From: a virus
Reading direction: 5' to 3' (one strand)
IMG/VR virus record: IMGVR_UViG_3300035180_000996
Location: 1 to 39,502 of that record
DNA: 39,502 bases
Shown one piece after another: positions 1 through 39,502 of this stretch; position 1 is the stretch's first letter, and each line of letters starts with the position of its first letter. The notes below the pieces were generated by a model, which worked only from the letters and a program-made list of their open reading frames with translations, had not been told where the DNA came from and searched no databases. A program made the translations under genes and the position numbers.

Positions 1-144
1 GGAAGCATATCCAGCGATGAAGGAGACAGCACCGGAGGATTCACTGGCCAGTTAGCTGGAACCTTTACTCGTTGCTCGTCATCGACAGACGTTACTGGAC
101 GCTATTGGACTGGCGGGTTTTCTGGTAGTTGTTCTTGGCAGGCT
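1..144. repeat. Terminal direct repeat, left copy
   Basis: These 144 bases are repeated at 39359-39502 with one substitution (A at 127, G at 39485). The reading frame of the protein entering the right end continues in phase into base 1, so this is the overlap of a circular assembly or a circularly permuted genome. It is not a biological duplication inside the gene. The unique genome is then 39,358 bp. Confidence 0.95.
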
Positions 145-565: not shown

Positions 566-2392
566 ATGAAATTCATTACAACAGTTGGCGGCAACCAGTT
601 TAATCCGAAGGACTTGATCTCTTTCCTTAAGTATAAGTACGCCTCGGACCCAGCCGGTTATAGTCAAAAGGCAGGATATGGTGCTGCCGCCGATAAGGTT
701 CGTTCTGCTTTTGGCGTAACAGATTACGGGAAGGACCAGGGATTAGATCCGAACTTTGAATACAATTACAACAAGATAGACTGGGGCGATCTAAATAAAA
801 CAGTTCAGGGCTGGGCGAACAGTGACGACCCCAACCTAAAAAGTCTGTCTGAAACCCTAACTCCATATCTTTCTAGTTCTGCGGACGATACTGGCATCTA
901 TAAGGCCGGAGACCTGCAAACCCAAATAACGAATGAACAGGCAATGGGCAACATTAAATCGCAAGAGGCTCAGTGGCAAGCCGTCCTTGATGGAGACGGG
1001 AGTTCGAATACGATTGCATTCCTAAAGCAGAATCAGGCGGACTCTATCCAGTCTCTTACTGACCAGGCTGCTCTCTTGAAGAAACAGGCGGAAGCCGACA
1101 ATGCGGCAGGGCGGGCGCAGGTAGAGGCGGACTATTCCGGTATTGCAGATGAGATTCTGGCCGGCGTAGCGAAGTTACAACACATGACGACAGATGAATA
1201 TGCTGCTCGTGGCATGGCGTTTTCTGGAACGTTAAACCAGGCGCAAGCAGACATAGCCGCCGCCGGAGCAGCTCAAATTGGAAAGGCCATGGCACAGAAG
1301 GGAGCGAGACTTGGGGCTCTTACCCAAGACCTGATTAAGTATACGGCCCAGATAGACCTGGACACGCTCAGAAGCAAGACAAACCTTGTCACTCAGTATG
1401 GTCTGCAAATGGCGGAACTTCTTGATAAAGATGCGAGCGTTCGGAATCAGGCAAGGGCAATGCTCGCGGCCCTACAGGTTCAAGAGAATACCCAGAAGAC
1501 TATTGCCCCATTGCAGTCCGAACTTTCTCACACACAAGCAGATCAGGCATATAGCGCCCAATACTCCAAGGCACAGCAGGACGCCGAGCAGAAATCATAT
1601 GATCGAAAGATGGCCGCCAACCAACTACAGGCACAGTACGGTATTCAGATTGACCCGCAAACGGGCACGTTCATTTCGCAGAGCCTTACTCCCACTCAGA
1701 AATGGAATGTCGTGCATGACTCGGCTGATTTGCTGGGACAATATGGCATCGTTGTAAATCAGGATAAGAATGGAAACATTACATTTACTGACGGGCTATC
1801 TGACTCAGAACAGACCGCTAGAATTAACGCACAGGCAAATCTTGATCGTGCGCTTAGTTCTGGAACTGGTTCGGGTTCTGGATCTGGGGCCAACATGACC
1901 ATCTCCCAGGCGAACTCGTATATCAAACAATACGAGGGTATTCAGGCCGAACTGTCAAAATATTCCAAGGACGCAAACGGAAACTGGGTCAAGGAAGGAC
2001 AGCCAAATCCCGCATATACTGCTGGAATTCAGGGTGCGCCGCCCACAATCGACACTCCAGTTTCTGCAGACTACGTTAAGCAATTGCAGGATCAGCTGGC
2101 GAGACTTGAGCCGACATATCGTTCGGCAATCTCTCTGAGAGACAAATCCACTGGAGCAAGCACTCCATTGCCGCTTTCATCGGATGAACGTGCGAACGTA
2201 ATTGGGTTTATTAATAAGGTTAAATCTACGGTTAATACGGTGTATAATGCCAATCACGAAAGATTGTCTCCACAAGAGGCAGCCCAAAAACTCATGGATC
2301 AGGTTGGATCACAACTTACACCCGCAGAGATAAAAGCGATTCTCGCATATTTTAACGACGGAGACACGAGTGTTTTAAACGGGGGGAACTAA
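566..2392 (+). CDS. Putative internal virion protein, 608 aa, coiled coil
   Basis: The 608-residue protein starts at ATG 566 after a strong AGGAGGGG site. Residues about 130-350 are rich in Ala, Gln, Glu and Lys with helical heptad character. A Gly-Ser linker lies near residue 435 (SSGTGSGSGSGAN), followed by a second helical region. I recognise no enzyme motif. Its stop overlaps the start of the 2635-aa protein (TAATG), so the two are co-translated. In podoviruses a mid-sized helical protein immediately before a giant one is typically an internal core or ejection protein. That role is inferred from position and composition only. Confidence 0.6.
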   Translation: MKFITTVGGNQFNPKDLISFLKYKYASDPAGYSQKAGYGAAADKVRSAFGVTDYGKDQGLDPNFEYNYNKIDWGDLNKTVQGWANSDDPNLKSLSETLTPYLSSSADDTGIYKAGDLQTQITNEQAMGNIKSQEAQWQAVLDGDGSSNTIAFLKQNQADSIQSLTDQAALLKKQAEADNAAGRAQVEADYSGIADEILAGVAKLQHMTTDEYAARGMAFSGTLNQAQADIAAAGAAQIGKAMAQKGARLGALTQDLIKYTAQIDLDTLRSKTNLVTQYGLQMAELLDKDASVRNQARAMLAALQVQENTQKTIAPLQSELSHTQADQAYSAQYSKAQQDAEQKSYDRKMAANQLQAQYGIQIDPQTGTFISQSLTPTQKWNVVHDSADLLGQYGIVVNQDKNGNITFTDGLSDSEQTARINAQANLDRALSSGTGSGSGSGANMTISQANSYIKQYEGIQAELSKYSKDANGNWVKEGQPNPAYTAGIQGAPPTIDTPVSADYVKQLQDQLARLEPTYRSAISLRDKSTGASTPLPLSSDERANVIGFINKVKSTVNTVYNANHERLSPQEAAQKLMDQVGSQLTPAEIKAILAYFNDGDTSVLNGGN

Positions 2393-5300
2393 TGCCGCTT
2401 ATTGACTATTCTAAAATAAATCTGGGGGAGACCGTTTCGGATGCGTTTTCAAATAAAAAGTTGAAAGCCCCGACTCCTAAGAATTCCCGCATAATTGACT
2501 ACGATTCCATAGACATTTCTCCGCCCATTCACCCCGATCAGGGGAACAACCTAGTCCCCGATTATGGCGCCGGAGCGATGACTGAACAGGAATGGCGGAC
2601 CCGTAATAACGTAGAGCCAAACTGGATTAATGCAGTCAATCAAGCGGCTGGCCCGAAGATGTCGGAGTACAATCCGGCGCTATCTCGTTCCCCGAATTGG
2701 TTCGAGAACCAGATTATTCAACAAACCCCCCTTGGGCAAGCATCGTCTGCTCTTCTGAACGCTGCCTATACAATGAGATTTGCGGGTGACTCCGCCGTTC
2801 GTCAGGTCGGAGAGCTTTATACCAAAGCAACGGGGAAAACCAATCCGGACATTACAAGAATGATCAACGTTGCCGCAGATGACGGGAAGAAACAACTTGA
2901 GACGATACAAAATCGTGGACTCATTAGCCCCAAGCAGAGCTCTATCCTCTGGTCGGCATTGAATTCAGCCCCAACGATTGGAACCGCAATTCTTGTTTCT
3001 GCTCTTGGGCAGCCGGAAATTTCTGCCACATTACTTGGAGCATATGCCGACGCTCTTTCTTATGGACAGTATCGCGAATCTGGTGTTGGCGTTGGGAAGG
3101 CAGCGCTTGGCGCCGCAGCGAAGGGGTTATTTACTGCCGCATCGATGGAGATTCCAACGGGTCAATTGACCAATGTTATCGGGAAAATGGCCGATACCGC
3201 AGCAGAACGGGCCGGAGTCTTTGCGCTTCGCGTTGCTTCTCAGGGAGCGCTCGGAGGGGCTCGACAGGCCGTCTCTAATGTAATTGATGCTTCGGTTCTA
3301 AATAAGTGGTCAAAAGATGGTTTGCCCGCGAATGTAAAGACAGTAATGTCTGGCGTCATGTCTGCGGCCATTACTGCATCTTTATTGACCGTTCCAGTCG
3401 CCGCTTTCCAGGCATATGTCGACAAGTATGACATAGTTAATCGGGTGGCACGCAATATCAAAAAAGACGTTCCATCGGCTTCAGATCAGACATGTCTACA
3501 AACTGCAACCGAGTACGTCGACTTCGCAAAGAAGATTGCTGGAATACGGAATACGCCAGAGGGTGCTGCTGCCTGGGCGCAGGCTATGGGTCAATTGAAA
3601 GATGCAATGCCTGGCGCAGACATTACCGACTATCAGGTGATGGTCCAGCTGTTTAAGGCGATGAAGTTTGGGAATAAACCCATGGAGAATCCCGCTGCTG
3701 GTCAGGCGCAGGGTGAAAGTGCGGCCCCAACTTCTACCAATTCTATCGTTACGCCACAACCAGAGGCTGTGCCCAATATAGGGGCAGTTCCCTTGGTCCC
3801 CGCAGTTCCTGCCATTCCTCAGGTGCAGATGCCACTGCAGCCTCTCGCCTCTGTTTCGGCTGTTCCCCAGGCGGGTCCTATCCATAACGTCGTGGAACAT
3901 GGGGCAGAGGTTCCGCATCCGGAATATGAGTGGCGTGGTATCTGGCACTCTGCTGATACAGACTACCCAGTGACGGTTATCGAGGTTACGCCCGATGCAA
4001 ACGGTAATCCAATGGCAAAGATCAAGGAAAGCAACGCCTATGTACCGCTAACGGAGATTACTCCACTGACAGCCCCCCACAAAGAGCAGGAAGAGCCAGC
4101 CCCTATTGCGCCGATTGTTCCAATTCCTCCTCAAGAAATGGCCCCGCAGAACGCTCAGGCGCCAATAGCGCTCCCCGAACCGCCACTCGCCCTACGTTCT
4201 GGGGCCCAAAGATATGGTGCAATTCCGCTGGGCGGCCCAGTTGCTCCTGGACCAGACATGGCCGCAGGGGAACATATAGAGATGACTCCCCAAGAAGAGG
4301 CGGCGGATGCCATGGGGTTTCTTGCGAAGAATCCAGAGAACGTCGGGGCTATCGGCGTTGACATGAAGGGAATAACATATGTATTTATAGCCGGACAGAA
4401 AGAGGTTATTAACGCCGAACCAGACAAGTGGAGGATAACCCTCGGCCCGACCTTCTTTGAACTCTCCCCGTATGGACGCAGGGCCCTTATTGAGCAGGCT
4501 CTCCCGCAGTTTACGCCGTCCGCCCTAGAGAGGGCAAAAGCATTCCCAGGAGAGCAGGCCGCCCCAGCCGAGAACGCCCCAAACATTCCGGAAGAGCCGC
4601 CACAAAAACAAGAAGACATAGTAGACGCCGTTGAAAACGATGGAGAGGTTCTTCCAGACCTGGGGCCCAGATGGACCGAGGTTGAGTGGCGCGACTATTC
4701 TCCGAAGGAGATTATCAAGTACGCCCGTGCTGCCGTTGACAATGGACAGTACAATAATGACCTTTACCTCAACATGATGGACGCCCTAAAGCGTGGGAAC
4801 CAGGACCATGAGCATGAGCAGGCAATAAGGATTCTGAATGAAATCAACGAAAAAGTCCCGCCGCATATAAGAAATCGACACCTTCCGCTAGTGAGTTCGG
4901 ATAGGGAAGAGCATTGGGATAACTTCGCACCAGAAGATGTTTTGGCTCAAGCCAAGAAGCGCATGGAAGAGGGGAAGATTAGTTACGAGGTTTACCATGC
5001 GATGAGGCTTTCCCTTCTAAAGAGGTCCAATTTCCTTGAGGGAGAGAATTTGCCTGGCGGTGACGAGGCATTCGCGGCTCTCAAAGAACTTGATGCCGCA
5101 TGGCAAAAATTCGAGAACCCGCATGGAACGCCAGCCTCCATACTCCCGCAGCGGGAAATGATTCCACACGACGGTGACGTCGTTGTTCCAAATCGCGGTT
5201 GGGGATTCTATGGCGATGGGATCAGATACATGCGTGAAGATGGGTCTATCTATCACTACAACGAATGGGGCTATCGCGTTTGGGACAGAACCAGAGACAC

Positions 5301-8300
5301 TTATGACTCAGACGGGGTAAAACACGCTGGGTTTGTTCTCGGAGAGGTAATTCGCTCTCTCGACAATGGAGAGCCAGATTTCAGGGGGATCCCAGAACAC
5401 AATTTTACAAGAATTAGCGATATAGCCCCAGCGGAAAATGAAGAGGTTGTTCGGGTCGTTGCGTTAATTCTGACACCCGACAGCATCATATGGACGGTCA
5501 CGGGATCTCACAATATTCTTGCCGGAGCGTTTAGGGACGTCGGGAAACTTGTAGAGGCCGTAAAGAACGAAGGATACAATCGCGATGAAATTGCAAAGAT
5601 TGTCGACGACAAAGAGATAAAAAGAATGAACGCCGCCGCTCCCCTTCCGGCTCCTGAACGAAAAGCGCCAGCGGCAAAGAATATCGGATCTAATGGCGAG
5701 CCGTGGGATCGAAACGGGCTTCCAAAAGGAGTCGGCTATCCACTTGAGAAGGTTATTGGCAAGGGGAAAGACGCAAAGCGCCCATTTGAAGTTACGTTTG
5801 AAGACTATATAAATAACTGGGTGCAGGTTCGTAAGAGCCCCCCGATGGCTCCGAAAGAGGGGCTATACCATGCTCTTCTTCTTGACAATGGAGAAGTCGT
5901 TATTGATTCGGGGCAAATAACTCCAGCCATTAAAAGGGGCCAGTGGGATAAGAATCGCGCCGCCTATTATGTCAGATTGGCACAAGTGAACGGTGTCCCA
6001 TATGGAAGAATAGCCGCTGTTGGAATGCTTTACAATGGAAAGTTTCACGCAGAGGGGATTGTGTCCAGCTCCGAAATCGGGAACATCGGAAGGAAGCGCA
6101 CGATTTGGAGATATATAGAAATTGTGCAAAAAGCACAGAATAGGGGAGTAGTGCTTCCAAACTCCGTTCTTGATTCCATTTTGAAACTCTTGAAGCCGAT
6201 TGACGAATACATTGAGGCGGGGAAGAAAATTGGGGTCAATCGCACGATTAAGGATTGGGTGAATGATCCCAGCCAAGTTGTTCCGCCGTGGGGTTCTGAG
6301 TGGGGAAAGTCATATCAACCCGCGAATATATCAACGAACGGAAAGGTCCCCCCAGAATTTCCGCCCCTTGCGAACCCCGCCAAACAAGCCCCCAAACCAC
6401 CCGAACCAGAGAACGAACCGCCTTCCGACGCATCGCTGGGGACAAACGATCATGTGGAATCAAAGGTACAAGACGTTCGTGACGGTGTTCCAAAGTATGA
6501 TGAAAATGGCGACCCCAACGCCGTATATTTCTTCAAATTTATGAGAGACAACGGGAACCCGCTCACTGATCCACTAGACCCAAGATTTACTCTGGAAGAT
6601 GGCCACGTTGTAAATGGAAGGGACGAAAATCTTGGAAGATACAATATTGAGCGTCCAGTTGGCGGAATCCCCGCATTCATGCGTCCATTCCTAAACTATA
6701 TTGACATCTACGCCAACCCCAGAGACAATAATTGGGGGATCGATCTCTCAAATGGTCCGGTCATCCAGAAGGCATCTCCAAACGACACGCCCTATGAAAT
6801 ATACCAGCAAAACTCTTGGGGAACCTGGCTTCGTGGAATTCTCCTAGACGATGGTAGCGAGTTGCTTGGCGGAACTGGAGTGCTTGAGAATGGCGATGAA
6901 GTTCCAGTAGCGAACCACGTCAATATCATTGAAAGGTACGGAATTCCATTCGTTCATGTTATTGGTGGCTCTCATGTTCTTGGAAACTCTCAACGGTTAA
7001 ACCAGGAATGGATGCAACACTTTGTTACCGGCGCCCACATTGTCGGCATGGCGGCCAGGGCAGAAGAGGCATTTAGATATATCGCAATTGTAGAGCATGC
7101 CCAGCAATTGATAGCCGCACACCCAGAGTTTCCATATAGAATTCCCGAAGACGTTCTTTCTGACGTTGCGGTTCTTAAGAAAAAACTCAAAGACGCGAAC
7201 TGGATTCTTCCGGCACACCCAGAATTTGACGAACGCTATCTTGACGGGAGGGTCGGCTCTGGTAGATTCAGAGAGGGCGGAAAGAATGGCGCCCCAATGG
7301 ACGAGGGGGCGCGCAAGTTCTTCCTTTCCTCAATTTCAAAAAAAACAGTAGACAGGCTGATTAGGATAAACAAGTGGTATAAGTTTGCCTGGGAACACCT
7401 CAAGGATTCGATTTACAAGTGGGAGGGTCTTTCCAAGCGAGTTGTTGCAGACGCGACGGATATAGCGCCACTCACCCCCGAAGAATTGGCAGCAGAGGCC
7501 CAGAGGGAAAAAGCAAAGAAAGACTACGATAACTATCATGAGTTCCTGAACAAACTGCAAATGAACAAGGATGCGATAGCAGCGTACTGGGAGGTTTGGG
7601 GGAAAGAAAAAGAACTTCGTGAAGATGCGGCGAAACTCGGAGTTCCAGTAGAGCCACTTTTCTATGAACAACTCTACCCATTTGTTGACGAAATCCGTAA
7701 GTTTAAAAATCCGCTAGATGGATTGAGGGCGTGGAACGCCAAGAAGGGTTTTCAGAAAATAAAAGAAGAACAACCAGAGGGACTCCACTCTGATTGGTGG
7801 GAAAGACATCGCGATGCAATGGGGCTGCCAGAGGGCGATGAGAATAAGGCGAAAGAGGTTGATCAAGGACTTGGCATCATTGAGGACCTGCTGGGTAAAA
7901 TTAACGATCCACACTTCAACGGTGGTCGACCTGGCTATTTTATGCTTCGGCTACTCTACCCTTCGTTCCTTACTCCACATCACCAGATAGGAATAGCGCC
8001 GGAGCAGGATAAGATGTCTAGGATACGCGAAGCCGCGCTTGACGACGTCGTTGACATCCGCAATCTGTTGTTCTTCATGAATGGGAACGAGAACATACTT
8101 TGTATACGAGGAGGTCCCATCCTTGCCGTAAATGCGGTAAATGACGGGAGGGCTCTTCTTCCAAACATTAAGACCGGACAAATCTATGCACCAGGACATC
8201 TTCTTCCGTTCTATGTAATCGGAGATAGGCTGAAAGCCGCTGGAAAGACATTTAAGGATTTGGACAGGTTCGCGGCTATCTATGTTGCCGGTCTTGGATT

Positions 8301-10299
8301 CCCCATTAATAGGGCGGACATGCCCGAAATAAATGAGGCAAAGCAAAAAGACATGCTCACAGTCATGCAGAACGCTGCCGTTATGCTCAGTAAGTATACG
8401 GATGATGAGCAGCGCCTCTTTATGCAGGCAATGGATTCTGTTCGTGCGTACATAATGCCACTTGTAACGGCAATGGTAAACAAGGGCATGATTGACACGC
8501 AGGGATTGTCGATAGATGAGTTCGTTGACAGATATATGGCCGGCTCGCCTCTAGGCGTACCAGACATTAACAACGGCGACCCCCTTATGAGGAGAGACAT
8601 GGAGAACGTCTCTAAGGAAAAGGTCGTCGGATTCATGGACGGTATCGGGAACGCAATGGTGCATCTGTACAAGGCCTATTATGAGAATGAATTCATACAG
8701 GACTTTGCAGAAAAGTTTGGGCTTGTTTCGGATACAAAGAGCCCCGTCTCATTCTATAACGACAAGGGAGAGAAAAAGTACGTTAACGCTCCCGACTATA
8801 TCCTTCGTCAGTTGCGTGCTGTTTCGAGCAGGAACGGCCCAGAAAGCAAACTTCTCTCTTCGGGCTGGTATCGCAAGATGATGTACTACAGCCGAGAGGC
8901 GAAGATATTTACTCCAAACTTCGCAATGATTAACCTGCCACGCGATGCTACGCTTGCGTTCGCTCACTATGGCGTTCACCCCCTAACGCTAATCCAAACA
9001 ATAATCGGGGTGATTACCGGAAAGAGCAACAAGGCAGCTGGACAGATGTACCTTGGGCTTAACGATCTCGATTCTGCTCTTCCGAAGACGACGCTCCAAC
9101 GCATCCTTGAATACCTTAAGGACAATGTTCTTGGAGTGAGCGAATCGCTAATGAGAAACTATTCCAAGAACGTAGCGCAGCAGCTCGGCGGTTCGGAGCG
9201 TGACGCATTCTACGCCCTGCTTGGCGGAACTACGGACTTTACGGTTCACGGTTCTTCTGGAAAGGTTATGAATGTAGAGGCTATGCTCCAGTTCGCAAAG
9301 GCGGGACTTAACGTCGCTCAGTCTTGGAACAACCAGTTCAGGGAAATGATGGGAGATTTCAACAGCCCCGACAAGAAGACTCGGCTAAACGCATACAATC
9401 GTGCGCTCTATCTCATTCTCTTCTTGGTAACGGCTGTCATCTTCAAGACTCGCCAGAAACAAAAGAAGGTTCTCCAGGACTACGTTGTCGACAACAAGAT
9501 TCCGATTGAGGTTGGCAAGAGAATCCTCGCCGTACCCGAAGGCTGGAACACCGGAATGATGCTGGAGAACGAGATAGCCTCGGTTATCGCGGACATAAAG
9601 AACGGCGATCCGATGTGGAAGATAGAGCAAGATATGGGGTTGGAACTGTTCTCTTCTCTGATGGGATACATTGGGAGAGACGGCGACCCTGGAATCAAGT
9701 CCATTATCTCTACGCTTTCACCGACGATGGTAGAGCCGTTAGTCAGGGCTATCCTGAATGTTCAGTATGGCGGACGTCCAATTGATACGTTCGATTATGG
9801 TCAGGCATATACTCACTTCTATGACAGCACGAGTGAGGTTGCCAAGAAACTTTGCGCCAGGCTACATGCCAAGGACCCAAGAATAGACATCTCTCCGATA
9901 GTACTTGAGTTCGTATTGAAGTCGTATCTTGGCAGGTACGGGCAGGCTATATCGGTTTCAGATGACGCCCAGCAGCCAGGGGTATTTAACGGAATAAAGA
10001 ACTCGGTTGAATACTTTGCCAAGCAGCCATACCTCCTTGACATACCCCAGGGGGTACAGACACAGATGTACCAGGACTTCAAGAACGATTATGCCAAGGT
10101 CAATGGCGACCTAACAGCCGTCAAGAAGGGGGTGCTTCGTATCAATAACGCGATGTACGTTGACCTGCTTGCCATGCAGAACGTTAACAAGGCGCTCGGT
10201 CAGGTTACTTCCCCCGCGGACATCTTCGCATTGGCGACAATGGGAGAGAGTGCGTACGAAAGATACGTTTCTGACGCACATGCCTATAAGGGCAGATAA
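2392..10299 (+). CDS. Giant multi-domain virion protein, 2635 aa (large polyvalent protein-like)
   Basis: One open frame fills a fifth of the genome. The N-terminal 350 residues contain long hydrophobic Ala/Gly stretches around 190-220 and 325-345 that could enter a membrane. Residues about 440-750 are Pro/Ala-rich linkers, and the middle alternates globular beta-rich stretches with further Pro linkers. The C-terminal part contains a block starting FTPNFAMINLPRD (about residue 2178), resembling the conserved C-terminal domain of phage large polyvalent proteins (LPD38-like), and a hydrophobic helix near 2336 (ALYLILFLVTAVIF). It lies last in the late operon, as ejected internal proteins of podoviruses do. 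I infer a packaged protein that helps genome delivery, possibly carrying anti-host activities. I saw no convincing RNA polymerase or transglycosylase motif. Confidence 0.65.
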   Translation: MPLIDYSKINLGETVSDAFSNKKLKAPTPKNSRIIDYDSIDISPPIHPDQGNNLVPDYGAGAMTEQEWRTRNNVEPNWINAVNQAAGPKMSEYNPALSRSPNWFENQIIQQTPLGQASSALLNAAYTMRFAGDSAVRQVGELYTKATGKTNPDITRMINVAADDGKKQLETIQNRGLISPKQSSILWSALNSAPTIGTAILVSALGQPEISATLLGAYADALSYGQYRESGVGVGKAALGAAAKGLFTAASMEIPTGQLTNVIGKMADTAAERAGVFALRVASQGALGGARQAVSNVIDASVLNKWSKDGLPANVKTVMSGVMSAAITASLLTVPVAAFQAYVDKYDIVNRVARNIKKDVPSASDQTCLQTATEYVDFAKKIAGIRNTPEGAAAWAQAMGQLKDAMPGADITDYQVMVQLFKAMKFGNKPMENPAAGQAQGESAAPTSTNSIVTPQPEAVPNIGAVPLVPAVPAIPQVQMPLQPLASVSAVPQAGPIHNVVEHGAEVPHPEYEWRGIWHSADTDYPVTVIEVTPDANGNPMAKIKESNAYVPLTEITPLTAPHKEQEEPAPIAPIVPIPPQEMAPQNAQAPIALPEPPLALRSGAQRYGAIPLGGPVAPGPDMAAGEHIEMTPQEEAADAMGFLAKNPENVGAIGVDMKGITYVFIAGQKEVINAEPDKWRITLGPTFFELSPYGRRALIEQALPQFTPSALERAKAFPGEQAAPAENAPNIPEEPPQKQEDIVDAVENDGEVLPDLGPRWTEVEWRDYSPKEIIKYARAAVDNGQYNNDLYLNMMDALKRGNQDHEHEQAIRILNEINEKVPPHIRNRHLPLVSSDREEHWDNFAPEDVLAQAKKRMEEGKISYEVYHAMRLSLLKRSNFLEGENLPGGDEAFAALKELDAAWQKFENPHGTPASILPQREMIPHDGDVVVPNRGWGFYGDGIRYMREDGSIYHYNEWGYRVWDRTRDTYDSDGVKHAGFVLGEVIRSLDNGEPDFRGIPEHNFTRISDIAPAENEEVVRVVALILTPDSIIWTVTGSHNILAGAFRDVGKLVEAVKNEGYNRDEIAKIVDDKEIKRMNAAAPLPAPERKAPAAKNIGSNGEPWDRNGLPKGVGYPLEKVIGKGKDAKRPFEVTFEDYINNWVQVRKSPPMAPKEGLYHALLLDNGEVVIDSGQITPAIKRGQWDKNRAAYYVRLAQVNGVPYGRIAAVGMLYNGKFHAEGIVSSSEIGNIGRKRTIWRYIEIVQKAQNRGVVLPNSVLDSILKLLKPIDEYIEAGKKIGVNRTIKDWVNDPSQVVPPWGSEWGKSYQPANISTNGKVPPEFPPLANPAKQAPKPPEPENEPPSDASLGTNDHVESKVQDVRDGVPKYDENGDPNAVYFFKFMRDNGNPLTDPLDPRFTLEDGHVVNGRDENLGRYNIERPVGGIPAFMRPFLNYIDIYANPRDNNWGIDLSNGPVIQKASPNDTPYEIYQQNSWGTWLRGILLDDGSELLGGTGVLENGDEVPVANHVNIIERYGIPFVHVIGGSHVLGNSQRLNQEWMQHFVTGAHIVGMAARAEEAFRYIAIVEHAQQLIAAHPEFPYRIPEDVLSDVAVLKKKLKDANWILPAHPEFDERYLDGRVGSGRFREGGKNGAPMDEGARKFFLSSISKKTVDRLIRINKWYKFAWEHLKDSIYKWEGLSKRVVADATDIAPLTPEELAAEAQREKAKKDYDNYHEFLNKLQMNKDAIAAYWEVWGKEKELREDAAKLGVPVEPLFYEQLYPFVDEIRKFKNPLDGLRAWNAKKGFQKIKEEQPEGLHSDWWERHRDAMGLPEGDENKAKEVDQGLGIIEDLLGKINDPHFNGGRPGYFMLRLLYPSFLTPHHQIGIAPEQDKMSRIREAALDDVVDIRNLLFFMNGNENILCIRGGPILAVNAVNDGRALLPNIKTGQIYAPGHLLPFYVIGDRLKAAGKTFKDLDRFAAIYVAGLGFPINRADMPEINEAKQKDMLTVMQNAAVMLSKYTDDEQRLFMQAMDSVRAYIMPLVTAMVNKGMIDTQGLSIDEFVDRYMAGSPLGVPDINNGDPLMRRDMENVSKEKVVGFMDGIGNAMVHLYKAYYENEFIQDFAEKFGLVSDTKSPVSFYNDKGEKKYVNAPDYILRQLRAVSSRNGPESKLLSSGWYRKMMYYSREAKIFTPNFAMINLPRDATLAFAHYGVHPLTLIQTIIGVITGKSNKAAGQMYLGLNDLDSALPKTTLQRILEYLKDNVLGVSESLMRNYSKNVAQQLGGSERDAFYALLGGTTDFTVHGSSGKVMNVEAMLQFAKAGLNVAQSWNNQFREMMGDFNSPDKKTRLNAYNRALYLILFLVTAVIFKTRQKQKKVLQDYVVDNKIPIEVGKRILAVPEGWNTGMMLENEIASVIADIKNGDPMWKIEQDMGLELFSSLMGYIGRDGDPGIKSIISTLSPTMVEPLVRAILNVQYGGRPIDTFDYGQAYTHFYDSTSEVAKKLCARLHAKDPRIDISPIVLEFVLKSYLGRYGQAISVSDDAQQPGVFNGIKNSVEYFAKQPYLLDIPQGVQTQMYQDFKNDYAKVNGDLTAVKKGVLRINNAMYVDLLAMQNVNKALGQVTSPADIFALATMGESAYERYVSDAHAYKGR

Positions 10300-10795: not shown

Positions 10796-11009
10796 CGTGT
10801 AGTCTTCGTCTGGATTGATTATCTCCTCTCTTTCTTGAATTCTTCGACTGTGATTTGCGTAGCGTTTCCACCACTTTGCGGAGTTGTTCGTCAGCCAAAC
10901 GTGAGCGTGACATCTGCTTCTTGACATCTAGTCCCTCCCGCCATATTTTAAGATACGGAGCATCGATTGGGTCAAATTGCCGATGCGCTTTTTGTTTTTT
11001 CTCACTCAT
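10776..11009 (-). CDS. Hypothetical protein, 77 aa, basic C-terminus
   Basis: The ATG at 11009 overlaps the upstream stop (ATGAGTGA). The first half is a helical segment with alternating charge. From about residue 54 it becomes Arg/Lys/Asn/Ser-rich and overlaps the other small frame, where composition looks less protein-like. A disordered basic tail or a frameshift between the two overlapping frames are both possible. No function can be assigned. Confidence 0.55.
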   Translation of the reverse strand: MSEKKQKAHRQFDPIDAPYLKIWREGLDVKKQMSRSRLADEQLRKVVETLRKSQSKNSRKRGDNQSRRRLHDEPENE

Positions 11010-11241
11010 CGCTAAACCATCTCCTTACTATCCACCTTACCAGGAGTAGCCCAAGCCAGGTTACGTCGTGCCCATCATAGTGATTTCGGAAGCGATTGAA
11101 TTGCTTGACTTTCTTTGTGAAGAAACGAATCTCATATCGGTCATAGCCTTCATTCGGATAGTACACCTCAATACGCCCGCCTATATATCCATAATAGTCG
11201 GGATTCATAACTGTTTCTTCGTTGAACGCTAGGAATGCCAT
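11002..11241 (-). CDS. Hypothetical protein, 79 aa
   Basis: The start is ATG 11241, behind AAAGGAGAG at 11253-11246; an upstream in-frame ATG at 11322 would read through the tRNA-like element and is unlikely. The product begins MAFLAFNEE and has Tyr-rich beta-like segments followed by a hydrophobic stretch (WLGLLLVRWIV) near the C-terminus, which might touch membrane. I do not recognise it. It is the first gene after the structured RNA region. Confidence 0.65.
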   Translation of the reverse strand: MAFLAFNEETVMNPDYYGYIGGRIEVYYPNEGYDRYEIRFFTKKVKQFNRFRNHYDGHDVTWLGLLLVRWIVRRWFSDE

Positions 11242-11253
11242 CTCTCTCTCCTT

Positions 11254-11320
11254 TGGCGCGTGGCCTGGATTTCTACCAGGATCACTCCGGATTGCGGAGG
11301 CTCTAATTGAGTTACCACGC
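11254..11320 (-). ncRNA. Degenerate tRNA-like element with encoded CCA
   Basis: Read on the minus strand, 67 nt fold like a shrunken tRNA. The acceptor is GCGTGG/CCACGC with GCCA at the 3' end. The D-like arm is CTC-AATTA-GAG, the anticodon-like arm CTCCG-CAATC-CGGAG, the variable part TGAT and the T-like arm CCTGG-TAGAAAT-CCAGG. Deviations from a working tRNA are a six-pair acceptor, a D loop without GG, a five-base anticodon loop without U33, and a T loop lacking TTCRA. It therefore probably does not decode. It ends directly before the next gene's ribosome site. It may be an RNase P processing signal for the upstream RNA, a tRNA mimic, or a decayed tRNA. Confidence 0.6.
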
Positions 11321-11331
11321 ATTGATAATGT

Positions 11332-11716
11332 ACGCGGCTGGACTTTCAGCCCCCATCGTCCACTTACGTCTGGAGGGCTTTGGGCGTAGCTCCTCCCTAA
11401 GAACCGCGTTAGAGGTTGGCTGGCGAGTGCGCCTGTCGCCTATTTAATCGGTTAGAGCGAAGCGAGGAGCCTCCAGTTTCGCCCCATACGAACCAACGGT
11501 TCAGGGCTGATAGTGTATGCCACCTCACGGGGCATCCCGTCATTTAATCGGAAGCTGATAAGTCAGTCCGAACCCCTTACTTACAGTTTCCAGCAATGAT
11601 GCTCAAAATAGTCTTTATCCGACATTATGTCCCCCGCGGGGGAACTTTAGCAACGCCATCCCCACAACATATTGTCGCAATGACTGAGCCCGCCGTTTCA
11701 ATGCCACTCGCCAGCC
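11332..11716 (-). ncRNA. Candidate large structured non-coding RNA
   Basis: About 440 bases (11323-11762) hold no plausible gene, unusual in this tightly packed operon. On the minus strand GGCTGGCGAGTG (11716-11705) pairs perfectly with CACTCGCCAGCC (11429-11418), closing about 300 nt. Inside are hairpins at 11570-11549, 11540-11527 (ACGGG-ATGC-CCCGT), 11502-11490 (GAACC/GGTTC) and 11482-11457 (GCGAA/TTCGC), plus two copies of CCGATTAAAT exactly 100 nt apart (11551-11542, 11451-11442). A second domain is closed by ACGCGG (11409-11404) and CCGCGT (11337-11332) and contains GGAGG/CCTCC and TGGAC/GTCCA stems. I see no RNase P, tmRNA or group I/II intron signatures. The class is unknown to me; large phage RNAs such as GOLLD and ROOL are the nearest idea by context only. 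Confidence 0.65.
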
Positions 11717-11762
11717 TCGTTTTTGTTTAACTCGTGTGCATTGAAAAAAACCTTTATCAAAG

Positions 11763-12398
11763 TTATTCGGGGGTCGGCGGAGTCATTGATCCCAAAAATG
11801 CCGCCGCCTCAGAGAAGGTCAGCGCTCTGATATTAATGACCCCAGCGAAATCGAATACCGCTTGTTCCGCCGCCTCAACGTCAGGGGCAAGTTTCTCGCC
11901 ATCTTTCTTCATGAACATGGCAAGGATAGCCTCGTGCTGAATCTTTGTTGACATCTTTACGATCTTGCCAGTCGCACTGTAAATCTGAATCTGTCTCACC
12001 ATCGCCCAGTAGTCTCCAATTTCTGCCTTGCTCCCGTTTAAAAATGCCGCGGCAGACTTAGTCGCACTTTCACGGACGATGCGAGCGTCCTTGTCGTCAA
12101 CAAACCCAGCAGGCGTGGGATTGCCATTCGTCTGTGCTGGCGCAGGCGCCTCTCCTGCCGAGATTACCTTGCCGGTGAAAACGTTCTCCCCCTCATACTG
12201 GGGGTCCTTGCTTTCTCGGTACTTAATCTCGCCCTCAACAATAGCCCCAGCCTGATACTTTCCCGCCGCATCTGCGCTCTTGTTCCAAACGACAACCTTC
12301 TTTTCGCCGTCATCTCCCTTGAGAATGAGCGTCAACTTTAGCCAGTTCGGTCCGGCCTGTTTGATGTCTCCGCGCTTTACTACAGTATACTTTGCCAT
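11763..12398 (-). CDS. Putative single-stranded DNA-binding (OB-fold) protein, 211 aa
   Basis: The start is ATG 12398 behind AAGGGGGAG. The first 80 residues look like a five-stranded OB barrel (alternating hydrophobic strands with WLKLTLIL, KKVVVW, AIVEGEI). An Ala/Pro/Asn linker near 83-100 leads to a helical second half. There is no acidic DDIPF-like tail as in bacterial SSB. Its place in the replication operon beside helicase and nucleases fits ssDNA binding. The assignment rests on pattern and context, and another OB-fold nucleic-acid protein is possible. Confidence 0.5.
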   Translation of the reverse strand: MAKYTVVKRGDIKQAGPNWLKLTLILKGDDGEKKVVVWNKSADAAGKYQAGAIVEGEIKYRESKDPQYEGENVFTGKVISAGEAPAPAQTNGNPTPAGFVDDKDARIVRESATKSAAAFLNGSKAEIGDYWAMVRQIQIYSATGKIVKMSTKIQHEAILAMFMKKDGEKLAPDVEAAEQAVFDFAGVINIRALTFSEAAAFLGSMTPPTPE

Positions 12399-20323: not shown

Positions 20324-20337
20324 TTTTAATCTCCTTT

Positions 20338-20352
20338 CTGGAATAATTCCAG
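20338..20352 (-). promoter_or_regulatory. Perfect dyad at the ribosome site of the primase operon
   Basis: CTGGAAT and ATTCCAG flank a single base. On the minus strand the dyad ends immediately before AAGGAG of the 102-aa gene. It could be an operator or a small hairpin that controls access to the ribosome site. Confidence 0.5.
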
Positions 20353-20364
20353 ATAAATGTTTTT

Positions 20365-20470
20365 GCGTACGCTTCGTGCGTACGTTCTTTTAAAAGAATC
20401 TTTTACGTTCTTTTAAAGATTTTTTACGTACGTTCTTTTAAAAGAATCTTTTAAATAATCTTTTAAGTAT
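20365..20470. repeat. AT-rich palindrome cluster: possible origin or operator array
   Basis: The 14-bp palindrome TTCTTTTAAAAGAA occurs at 20385-20398 and 20433-20446, with a shortened copy (TTCTTTTAAAGA) at 20408-20419 and a half-like AATCTTTTAAG near 20457-20467. The unit ACGTTCTTTTAAA recurs about every 24 bases. GTAC-containing palindromes GCGTACGC (20365-20372), GCGTACG (20378-20384) and ACGTACGT (20426-20433) are interspersed. The whole 223-base gap (20324-20546) is non-coding and lies just upstream of the primase genes. This is typical of an iteron-like origin or of multiple operators; the sequence alone cannot decide. Confidence 0.65.
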
Positions 20471-20546
20471 ATAAAGGAAAGAGAGTATGAGAGGAAACCC
20501 AAATTCCCCAGAGAGTACCCCGAAGGATACCCCCTAGGGGTATATC

Positions 20547-20917: not shown

Positions 20918-21811
20918 TTATACGAGTTTCTCAACATTATGCAATAGTCTTTTCGACAACTTCGCCGTCCGGCGTTCCTTTATTGGCAATCCTAACTCCT
21001 TGTTCAGCTCTTCAATCGCTGCGTCTTTTTCTGCTTCTGTCATGGCGCTTCTGATTTGTGCCTTTTCCGCTTCGGTTTTTCCGCCGGAAATCTCTGGCTT
21101 TCTGGGCTCTTCATACTTTGCTACGACCAACGTGCAATTGTCCACTCCGCCGTTCTTCAATGCAAGCATTGTCAGATCGTCAACCGCTCGGTCAACCCCA
21201 CTCACCATTAAAATTGCCTCAATCACCTCATCTGAAACCATGTTATATAGCCCGTCGGAACAGACTACAAACTTATCGCCGTTGTGCAACCTAACAATCT
21301 GGATGTCCGGCTCAACTTCATAGCCGCCAACGAACTTTGTTAACCGAGAGCTGGCCATTTCCGGATTGTCATACAGTCCAGGGTGTTTCAGTGCGTACGT
21401 CAACTCATTGTCGTCTTCTGTCAACTGCTCAAGCATTCGCCCACGAAGCCGGTAAACGCGGCTATCGCCAATATTGAAGACGTACCCAACGTTTCCCTTG
21501 AATGCTACTCCAGTCAAGGTTGTCCCCATACCCCTGAAATCAAGGTTCGAGCGTGTCGCCGCAATCAATGTATCGATTGCTTTGTCGACGCCCCGATTTA
21601 TCAGGTCTGGTATGTCGTCATGCTTCATTGCATCGAATATCCCAGTGAACGCCGTAATCGCCAAGGCAGAGGCGACCTCTCCCGCGTTCTCTCCGCCCAA
21701 ACCATCGCAAACAACTGCAAGGTCTAGATCGTCATAGTGCTTTGTGAAAACCATGTCTTCATTGTTTTTCCTCACCGACCCCAAAACGGAGCGGCTTTTC
21801 ATTGTAATCAT
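20918..21811 (-). CDS. PP2C/PPM-family protein serine/threonine phosphatase, 297 aa
   Basis: The classic metal-dependent PPM motifs are all present: RKNNED (14-19), VCDGLGG (34-40), GMGTTL (94-99), NIGDSRVYR (113-121), CSDGLYN (184-190) and DNCTLVV (224-230). Asp36 and Gly37 plus Asp185 and Asp224 should bind the two Mn/Mg ions. A charged helical tail (about 235-297) follows the catalytic domain and has no match I know. Start ATG 21811 follows AAGGAG. No partner kinase is in the genome, so the substrate is presumably a host phosphoprotein. That could be one made by a Hanks-type kinase in regulation or defence, which is an inference. Confidence 0.92.
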   Translation of the reverse strand: MITMKSRSVLGSVRKNNEDMVFTKHYDDLDLAVVCDGLGGENAGEVASALAITAFTGIFDAMKHDDIPDLINRGVDKAIDTLIAATRSNLDFRGMGTTLTGVAFKGNVGYVFNIGDSRVYRLRGRMLEQLTEDDNELTYALKHPGLYDNPEMASSRLTKFVGGYEVEPDIQIVRLHNGDKFVVCSDGLYNMVSDEVIEAILMVSGVDRAVDDLTMLALKNGGVDNCTLVVAKYEEPRKPEISGGKTEAEKAQIRSAMTEAEKDAAIEELNKELGLPIKERRTAKLSKRLLHNVEKLV

Positions 21812-26392: not shown

Positions 26393-26466
26393 TACGCTGT
26401 CGTCCAACGGTAGGACATGGGGCTCTGAACCCCAGAATTCACGTTCGAGTCGTGGCGGCGTAGCCA
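26393..26466 (+). tRNA. tRNA-Gln (CTG)
   Basis: This is a full cloverleaf. The acceptor is TACGCTG/CGGCGTA with one GT pair, the D arm GTCC/GGAC, the anticodon arm TGGGG-CTCTGAA-CCCCA with anticodon CTG (reads CAG), and the T arm has loop TTCGAGT. Discriminator G and CCA are encoded. It starts three bases after terL. Confidence 0.93.
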
Positions 26467-26468
26467 GA

Positions 26469-26542
26469 CCCCCCGTAGTCTAATGGTGGGACAGTGGACT
26501 TTGAATCCGCGTATCTACGTCCGAATCGTGGCGGGGGAGCCA
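26469..26542 (+). tRNA. tRNA-Gln (TTG)
   Basis: This is the second cloverleaf, two bases after the first. The acceptor is CCCCCCG/CGGGGGA with a C-A mismatch at the end. The anticodon arm is GTGGA-CTTTGAA-TCCGC with anticodon TTG (reads CAA and CAG), the T loop is TCCGAAT, and CCA is encoded. Together the two genes cover both Gln codons. Their layouts are alike, suggesting duplication followed by divergence. Confidence 0.9.
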
Positions 26543-38434: not shown

Positions 38435-39502
38435 ATGACGGGAACCGGTGGGGTCCCAGACCCCTATATCATCATGACCCGTGCCGACCTGGAGGAGATC
38501 AACAACGATCTGGCTGCCTACTATGAGTTGGGCGCGGACATTGACCTATCTGGTACAGACTGGGTACCGCTTGGAAGTGTTGACTTGACTCCATTTTCTG
38601 GTTCTTTTGACGGTAGGGGCCATACGATTGCCAACATGCACCATACTTATCAGGATGCTGATACGGCCGGTAACTTTGGATTATTTTGGTCACTTGCAGG
38701 TGCAACAGGAACAATAACCATACAAAATCTTCTCCTACGGAATCCCTCTGTGATTGTTGAAGATTCACATTCGGTATTCGGGCCAGGGAATATGGGGTTT
38801 CTTGCGGGCCATGCTGAACAATATGCGAGCATGAATGCCTCAATTTCTATTTCGAATGTCTTTGTCTGTAATGGTTCAATGTCAATTCTTTCTTCTGCTG
38901 GGGGAAACAACTTTGGCTTGTTGTTCGGATATGTATCTTCTATAGACTCAACGAGAATTACTCTTACCAATTGTCAAACAATCGGAACGATGACTTTCAT
39001 TGGCGAGCCTGGTAATATTGGCGGAATTGCTGGGTTTTTAACTGGAGGAGGCCTCACGCGATGCAGCGGAAAACTTACGGTTACCTTTACTGGAAGTGGT
39101 TACCACAATATTGACAATATTGGGGGGATCGCCTGCAATTTTAGTGGCGTAGCAACCGATTCAATTGGAGAATTAACTATCACCAACGTTAATAAAAACG
39201 ACCTTACTAATATCGGAGGATTTGCGGGAACAAGTCAGGGGGGTCAGTATACAAGATGCAAGGGAAAGACAATTGTTGTTGCCGGTAATGGCACAAATCT
39301 TGGAGGATTTATTGGCATCTCCGATTCTTCTGATATTTATGTGGATTGTTCAGCAGAAGGAAGCATATCCAGCGATGAAGGAGACAGCACCGGAGGATTC
39401 ACTGGCCAGTTAGCTGGAACCTTTACTCGTTGCTCGTCATCGACAGACGTTACTGGACGCTATTGGACTGGCGGGTTTTCTGGTGGTTGTTCTTGGCAGG
39501 CT
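38435..39502 (+). CDS. GLUG-repeat surface/tail protein, N-terminal part
   Basis: ATG 38435 follows GGGAGGAAA. The start DLEEINNDLAAYYELGADIDLSG, then FSGSFDGRGHTIANM, is the standard opening of GLUG-type solenoid proteins. It is followed by repeats with GGIAG, GGFAG and GGFIG separated by Cys-containing turns. No signal peptide is present, which agrees with assembly in the virion rather than secretion. The frame is open to 39502 and continues into 1-555 for 492 residues. It is the second probable host-recognition protein besides the tailspike. Confidence 0.8.
   Translation, partial: MTGTGGVPDPYIIMTRADLEEINNDLAAYYELGADIDLSGTDWVPLGSVDLTPFSGSFDGRGHTIANMHHTYQDADTAGNFGLFWSLAGATGTITIQNLLLRNPSVIVEDSHSVFGPGNMGFLAGHAEQYASMNASISISNVFVCNGSMSILSSAGGNNFGLLFGYVSSIDSTRITLTNCQTIGTMTFIGEPGNIGGIAGFLTGGGLTRCSGKLTVTFTGSGYHNIDNIGGIACNFSGVATDSIGELTITNVNKNDLTNIGGFAGTSQGGQYTRCKGKTIVVAGNGTNLGGFIGISDSSDIYVDCSAEGSISSDEGDSTGGFTGQLAGTFTRCSSSTDVTGRYWTGGFSGGCSWQA
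39359..39502. repeat. Terminal direct repeat, right copy
   Basis: This matches bases 1-144 except for G at 39485 in place of A at 127. The difference changes Ser to Gly in a GGFSG repeat of the GLUG protein. Confidence 0.95.

Follow-up and report, generated by a model that had tools for sequence, protein, structure and literature searches.

The early operon of an uncultured phage, read in a stretch of 39,502 nt (IMG/VR record IMGVR_UViG_3300035180_000996; hereafter the window), contains a non-coding gap on the minus strand. What does this gap encode, and what might its product do? The first-pass annotation had described a gap of 440 bases holding an unrecognised large structured RNA. A non-coding gap is indeed present, but it measures 521 nt (11762-11242), between a 211-aa and a 79-aa gene. 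Its end at 11242 assumes that the downstream gene starts at the ATG at 11241, which has a Shine-Dalgarno sequence; an alternative in-frame ATG at 11322 has none.

11763-12398, minus strand: upstream gene, 211 aa; C-terminal half 38-43% conserved; directly upstream of the RNA in relatives
11248-11253, minus strand: Shine-Dalgarno AAGGAG of the downstream gene, directly after the array described below
11002-11241, minus strand: downstream gene, 79 aa; a different gene at the same place in every lineage

The 211-aa product is possibly an OB-fold (SSB-like) protein, as suggested by the strand-rich N-terminal topology of its AlphaFold model, which is of low confidence (pLDDT 45.5). No convincing promoter belonging to the RNA itself was found ahead of it in the window, and therefore the RNA is probably part of the operon transcript there. 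The window belongs to a family of uncultured podovirus-like phages, of which the phage collection searched contained no close relatives. It carries a 144-nt direct terminal repeat (1-144 and 39359-39502, 99% identical) and probably represents a complete or circularly permuted genome. Elsewhere it encodes a PP2C-type protein phosphatase (20918-21811, minus strand; Pfam PF13672) and a polyvalent protein of 2635 aa (2392-10299, plus strand), which has an LPD38 domain close to the C-terminus and no match in named phages.

Folding and organisation of the RNA

The whole region folds at -181.6 kcal/mol (z -2.76), and none of 100 shuffled sequences folds as well. Within the 220-nt stretch 11551-11770, the z-score is -4.0 on the minus strand compared to -1.4 on the plus strand. 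However, a genome-wide scan gave equally low z-scores at other places, so that folding energy alone would not prove an RNA. The lowest scores of the genome belong to an intergenic region at 20324-20546, which contains two exact 27-nt repeats (CGTACGTTCTTTTAAAAGAATCTTTTA) and is a possible origin or operator.

A 12-bp stem (GGCTGGCGAGTG/CACTCGCCAGCC, 11716-11705 with 11429-11418) had been proposed to close a single ornate domain. The stem is exact and correctly placed, but its 5′ partner is absent from all relatives and its 3′ strand is part of a separate module, module 2 below. The two folds compete, at -181.6 kcal/mol with the 12-bp stem and -177.9 kcal/mol with module 2. Comparison favours module 2, whereas thermodynamics slightly favours the 12-bp stem; a switch between them is possible. 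An array of separate modules, reaching 11254 and ending in a cloverleaf, describes the RNA better.

11578-11716, minus strand: 5′ domain of the array, without a counterpart found in relatives; begins with the 5′ strand of the 12-bp stem (12 nt, 11716-11705)
11503-11577, minus strand: module 1, a three-way junction (3WJ), homologous in lineages A and B, covarying, 83 bits with covariance model R2
11541-11574, minus strand: core of module 1, GGTTCGGACTGACTTATCAGCTTCCGATTAAATG, conserved with 33/34 identical positions in A and 32/34 in B
11415-11498, minus strand: module 2, a second 3WJ, with P1 GUUGGU/GCCAAC, GGUUCG..CGAUUAAAU, P3 GGCGA/UCGCC and AGCC
11418-11429, minus strand: 3′ strand of the 12-bp stem; shares bases with P3 and P1 of module 2, so that only the stem or the module can form
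11332-11409, minus strand: module 3, a closed domain with P1 ACGCGGU/GCCGCGU and an interior without homology to modules 1-2
11257-11321, minus strand: module 4, a cloverleaf with acceptor UGCGUGG/CCACGCG and D-like, anticodon-like (5-nt loop) and T-like (7-nt loop) arms
11254-11256, minus strand: encoded CCA after the cloverleaf, forming GCCA together with G11257

Module 1 is built from P1 (GGGGU/GCCCU), P2 (UCGGA-CUG/CAG-UCCGA), J2/3 (UUAAA) and P3 (UGA..UCA) with an inner hairpin. The 3WJ consensus comprises a P1 ending in GGU/GCC, P2 UCGGA-CUG-ANUUAN-CAG-CU-UCCGA, J2/3 UUAAA and a covarying P3, with almost no further junction bases. Module 2 keeps GGUUCG..CGAUUAAAU..AGCC and differs from module 1 in P2. 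Searched with model R2, from which it was left out, module 2 is the third-best place of the genome (9.6 bits, E 1.3 genome-wide); all the pairs shown in its alignment to that model are standard, and a chance match is unlikely because it adjoins module 1. The pattern GGTTCG..CGATTAAAT..AGCC occurs in 4.8 Mb of searched sequence only in module copies. The twin CCGATTAAAT motifs reported earlier lie at 11551-11542 and 11451-11442, 100 nt apart, and CGATTAAAT has no occurrence elsewhere in the window. The second closed domain of the first-pass annotation (11409-11332) was recovered as module 3, with its closing stem.

With the other modules, module 3 and the cloverleaf have nothing but the P1 signature in common. 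At the top of P1, a U.G pair followed by two G-C pairs is found in 9/9 modules (window 1-4, A1, B1, B′1, B2 and C1); in RNA, U.G counts as a standard pair. Module 3, the cloverleaf, B1 and B′1 may tentatively be counted as modules, mainly by this signature and the closing stem; besides the P1 frame, module 3, B1 and B′1 give weak covariance-model scores.

The 3′ cloverleaf was absent from the first-pass annotation. A strict cloverleaf scan of both strands found this single place in the genome, and gave no match in 100 Mb of random sequence. Neither ARAGORN nor Rfam (RF00005) recognised 11321-11257 as a tRNA. Like a tRNA, module 4 has cloverleaf geometry, a 12-bp acceptor/T stack and an encoded CCA, and the T-loop UUCAAGU is found in a related RNA of contig G003. 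Unlike a tRNA, it has a 5-nt anticodon-like loop, a D-loop without GG, the T-loop UAGAAAU in the window and no match to tRNA models. Module 4 is thus tRNA-like in geometry only. The window also carries two adjacent tRNA-Gln genes (anticodons ctg and ttg) at 26393-26542, between terL and the portal gene. Derivation of module 4 from the tRNA-Gln was rejected, as no similarity was found (z about 1.1). ARAGORN detected no tRNA in the stretches of the relatives that were examined.

Relatives and covariation

No match to the region was found by blastn against phages and plasmids, and no relatives were retrieved when the 211-aa protein, DnaB or TerL served unmodified as query for related loci. A generic DnaB alignment retrieved 80 unrelated phages, and a search for the CCGATTAAAT pair pattern gave chance or protein-repeat matches. 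Two query alignments (A3 and A5) were padded with random pseudo-rows, which steered the choice of pattern to conserved motifs; A3 found no relatives and A5 did. The motif-steered TerL alignment yielded nine IMG/VR contigs with a TerL identity of 62-77%, confirmed by tblastn with the true window protein as query, and one further record was found by RNA pattern. The relatives are contig fragments, and a search by steered queries is not exhaustive. Gene order is common to the window and the relatives where contigs overlap, while replication proteins are only about 30-35% identical. A window-like element of 78-79 nt follows the 211-aa homologue in lineage A (G003, G004 and G010) and lineage B (G007 and G008). 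Modules are therefore carried at the main site by five records of two lineages. Beyond these, the 3WJ core pattern gave 14 chance matches in 84,980 genomes. Model R1 matched none of 80 other phage loci. A scan of about 1190 sampled bacterial genomes from three phyla gave no R1 match at E <= 1e-4, a weak negative given the strict filters, and so yielded no host RNA as a model for mimicry.

The 34-nt core of module 1 is near-identical between the window and both lineages, compared to 31-34% identity in the flanking proteins. Across three independent module 1 sequences, two-sided changes affect 8/27 pairs, which none of 500 shuffles reaches. The covariation score is 0.290 versus 0.143 for shuffled alignments (sd 0.030; 0/500), and slid structures score at most 0.148. 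In P1 and P3 the letters change by compensation across homologues. Compensatory base changes of this kind mark a conserved structured RNA. A coding region was rejected, since no frame is open throughout all three module 1 homologues. Of the comparative picture expected from the first-pass annotation, strong covariation and the lack of a conserved reading frame held in the relatives, but the 12-bp stem is not conserved. The existence of a structured RNA in the gap is well supported. That the region merely holds a chance fold, in a decayed intergenic sequence made for instance of old tRNA or gene remnants, would fit the folding z-scores that are not unique in the genome; covariation, core conservation, synteny and a module 4 unlike the tRNAs of the window largely refute this explanation, which is hardly tenable.

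Variation and module exchange

The length of the homologous RNA varies between about 80 nt and about 460 nt, and at the main site it can be missing altogether. Lineages A and B have one or two modules at this locus and no cloverleaf; in G009 the 211-aa homologue is present upstream, with no array at the site. The genes downstream of the site in the window, lineage A, lineage B and G009 are all different, as judged by inspection. G007 and G008 have near identical flanks on either side of the array, whereas the interiors of their first modules are unrelated (z 1.06). The swapped interior is about 80 nt long and lies between GCTGGTG and AGCCAGC. The two contigs thus differ by the exchange of a module interior between conserved P1 arms.

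A second locus

An extra copy of the core, C1, is found in G003 at 2070-2123; its E-value is about 1e-3 with R1 and rises to 0.069 with R2, the stricter model. Ahead of C1 lie the final late gene and a promoter-like element, and behind it a cloverleaf with the T-loop UUCAAGU and a 9-bp acceptor. In G007, G008 and G009 the same promoter cassette, of the sigma70 type (CCCCTTGCAGGAAACACTAAAACCCGTATAATAG, TTGCAG-16-TATAAT), is conserved at the second locus, followed by a non-coding RNA of about 400 nt (z -3.5) with a strong terminator-like hairpin at its end. A related form of this promoter stands upstream of the 211-aa homologue in lineage A and G009. Searching the late-locus RNA of these three contigs with R1 gave no convincing match. 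It has hairpins and 15 nine-mers in common with the late RNA of G003 (0.44 expected). Promoter, hairpins and common words suggest that these RNAs are akin. The second locus had no Rfam match at E <= 2.

Further features of the second locus were noted. In L211 (2057-2330) and L212 (8413-8810, plus strand) it has conserved, covarying hairpins GGUCA-GAAYACGG-UGACC and a duplicated unit, CCCCGCAAG..CUACGGGGGCAGGC. A promoter cassette GGGCYAGTGT-n-CCCTTGCAGG-n-GTATAATAG is repeated at L211 7243 (minus strand), L212 8370 (plus strand), L213 10489 (plus strand) and 15384 (minus strand); in the relatives it stands upstream of the 211-aa homologue and the late RNA, and it was not found in the window. 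Where late and early genes converge, a 304-nt intergenic region containing a bidirectional terminator is conserved between relatives:

L212 9480-9783, L216 13722-14025 and L213 13971-14274; partial in L211 2940-3110: 304-nt terminator region

In G003, a ParA-like gene accompanied by a small partner (L211 3858-4819, plus strand) suggests a plasmid-like lifestyle.

These data bear on whether the RNA acts in cis. The operon transcript could be insulated, stabilised or processed by the stable modules, and the cloverleaf would then signal cleavage by RNase P. The RNA indeed lies inside the operon on the coding strand, directly followed by the downstream Shine-Dalgarno sequence, RNase P could plausibly act on a cloverleaf with GCCA, and the promoter upstream of the 211-aa homologue would make the RNA a 3′ UTR. 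However, the genes downstream differ between lineages, the near-invariant P2 and J2/3 sequence exceeds the needs of stability, a related module occurs in a separate promoter-led non-coding locus, and the array is absent in G009 beside the same upstream gene. We regard a cis-acting mRNA element as possible, if rather unlikely. The narrower case of a cis-regulatory leader or riboswitch was rejected, because no downstream gene is conserved.

The element could also work at the DNA level, as folded single-stranded or cruciform DNA serving replication or recombination, with the P1 arms as exchange boundaries. It adjoins the possible SSB gene and replication genes, and cassettes are exchanged exactly at the P1 arms. 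Against this stand the U.G pair kept in every module on the transcribed strand, the strand asymmetry of folding and the promoter and terminator around the second locus, which make a DNA element very doubtful.

Comparison with known RNA families

The region belongs to no Rfam family, in agreement with the first-pass annotation: no match was found at E <= 5, GOLLD, ROOL and OLE included, and at gathering score the window and its relatives contain nothing but two tRNAs. Rfam was negative for RNase P RNA, self-splicing introns and known ribozymes, and both ARAGORN and Rfam were negative for a tmRNA, with its paired 5′ and 3′ tRNA-like domain and tag frame.

GOLLD and ROOL had been named as the closest precedent. 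The likeness holds for context, as all are large structured phage RNAs of unknown function in a tRNA-like context, but not for sequence or family: the RNA of the window is smaller, matches no Rfam model and forms a modular array of variable length with swapping modules. GOLLD and ROOL are encoded close to tRNAs and assemble into cages made of RNA only (PMC12286853). An ornate self-assembling scaffold of the GOLLD/ROOL/OLE kind would accord with the phage setting, the several structured domains and the tRNA-like part. Nevertheless it is improbable, given the negative Rfam search, a length that varies from about 80 to about 460 nt, and wholesale swaps of interiors, unlike a conserved interlocking cage.

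The pseudo-ToxI of phage phiTE is a phage RNA mimic that expands by repeats (PMC3475682). Both systems consist of repeated structured units borne by phages, whose number and content vary by recombination, and both have a possible decoy role. However, ToxI units are 36-nt pseudoknots, whereas those of the window are 75-100-nt three-way junctions, and the sequences do not match. No type III toxin was recognised among the neighbouring window proteins scanned, and the units are not the short pseudoknots of type III toxin-antitoxin RNAs such as ToxI. AbiF RNA (RF03085) likewise consists of tandem structured motifs linked to phage defence, but these are 33-35-nt hairpins beside the abiF gene; its covariance model gave no match, and no abiF gene was recognised among the neighbouring window proteins scanned.

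A tentative function

We tentatively favour a trans-acting modular non-coding RNA, probably a set of protein-binding decoys. Action in trans is suggested because downstream genes are not conserved and a module is found in a promoter-led locus. Specific protein binding is suggested because the letters of P2 and J2/3 hardly change, and a decoy or mimic because the modules vary in presence, number and interior, like phage RNA mimics such as pseudo-ToxI (PMC3475682). The array would act in trans, a host (or phage) RNA-binding protein binding the invariant P2 hairpin and junction, and would titrate or mimic RNA targets. Its most likely aim would be to blunt RNA-directed defences of the host, for example RNA-antitoxin or tRNA-cleaving systems. 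The 3′ cloverleaf with its GCCA may let RNase P and tRNA-processing enzymes of the host excise the array from the operon transcript; alternatively, it may itself be a tRNA decoy. A more elaborate proposal, speculative and unlikely as it stands, is an arsenal of swappable RNA decoys at two loci, in which a fixed 3WJ frame (P1 top GGU/GCC) would carry exchanged recognition interiors, including cloverleaf tRNA mimics, against different RNA-targeting defences of the host.

The RNA family is absent from Rfam, and the phages that carry it have no close relatives in the collection searched. In a literature search limited to open papers, no precedent was found for its organisation, in which closed modules keep a constant signature in the closing stem, exchange their interiors as cassettes and are joined to tRNA-like cloverleaves. 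If the modules are decoys, they would represent an evolvable RNA counterpart of the protein anti-defence islands of phages. Otherwise, the 34-nt core, which hardly varies, still indicates a specific binding partner that can be identified.
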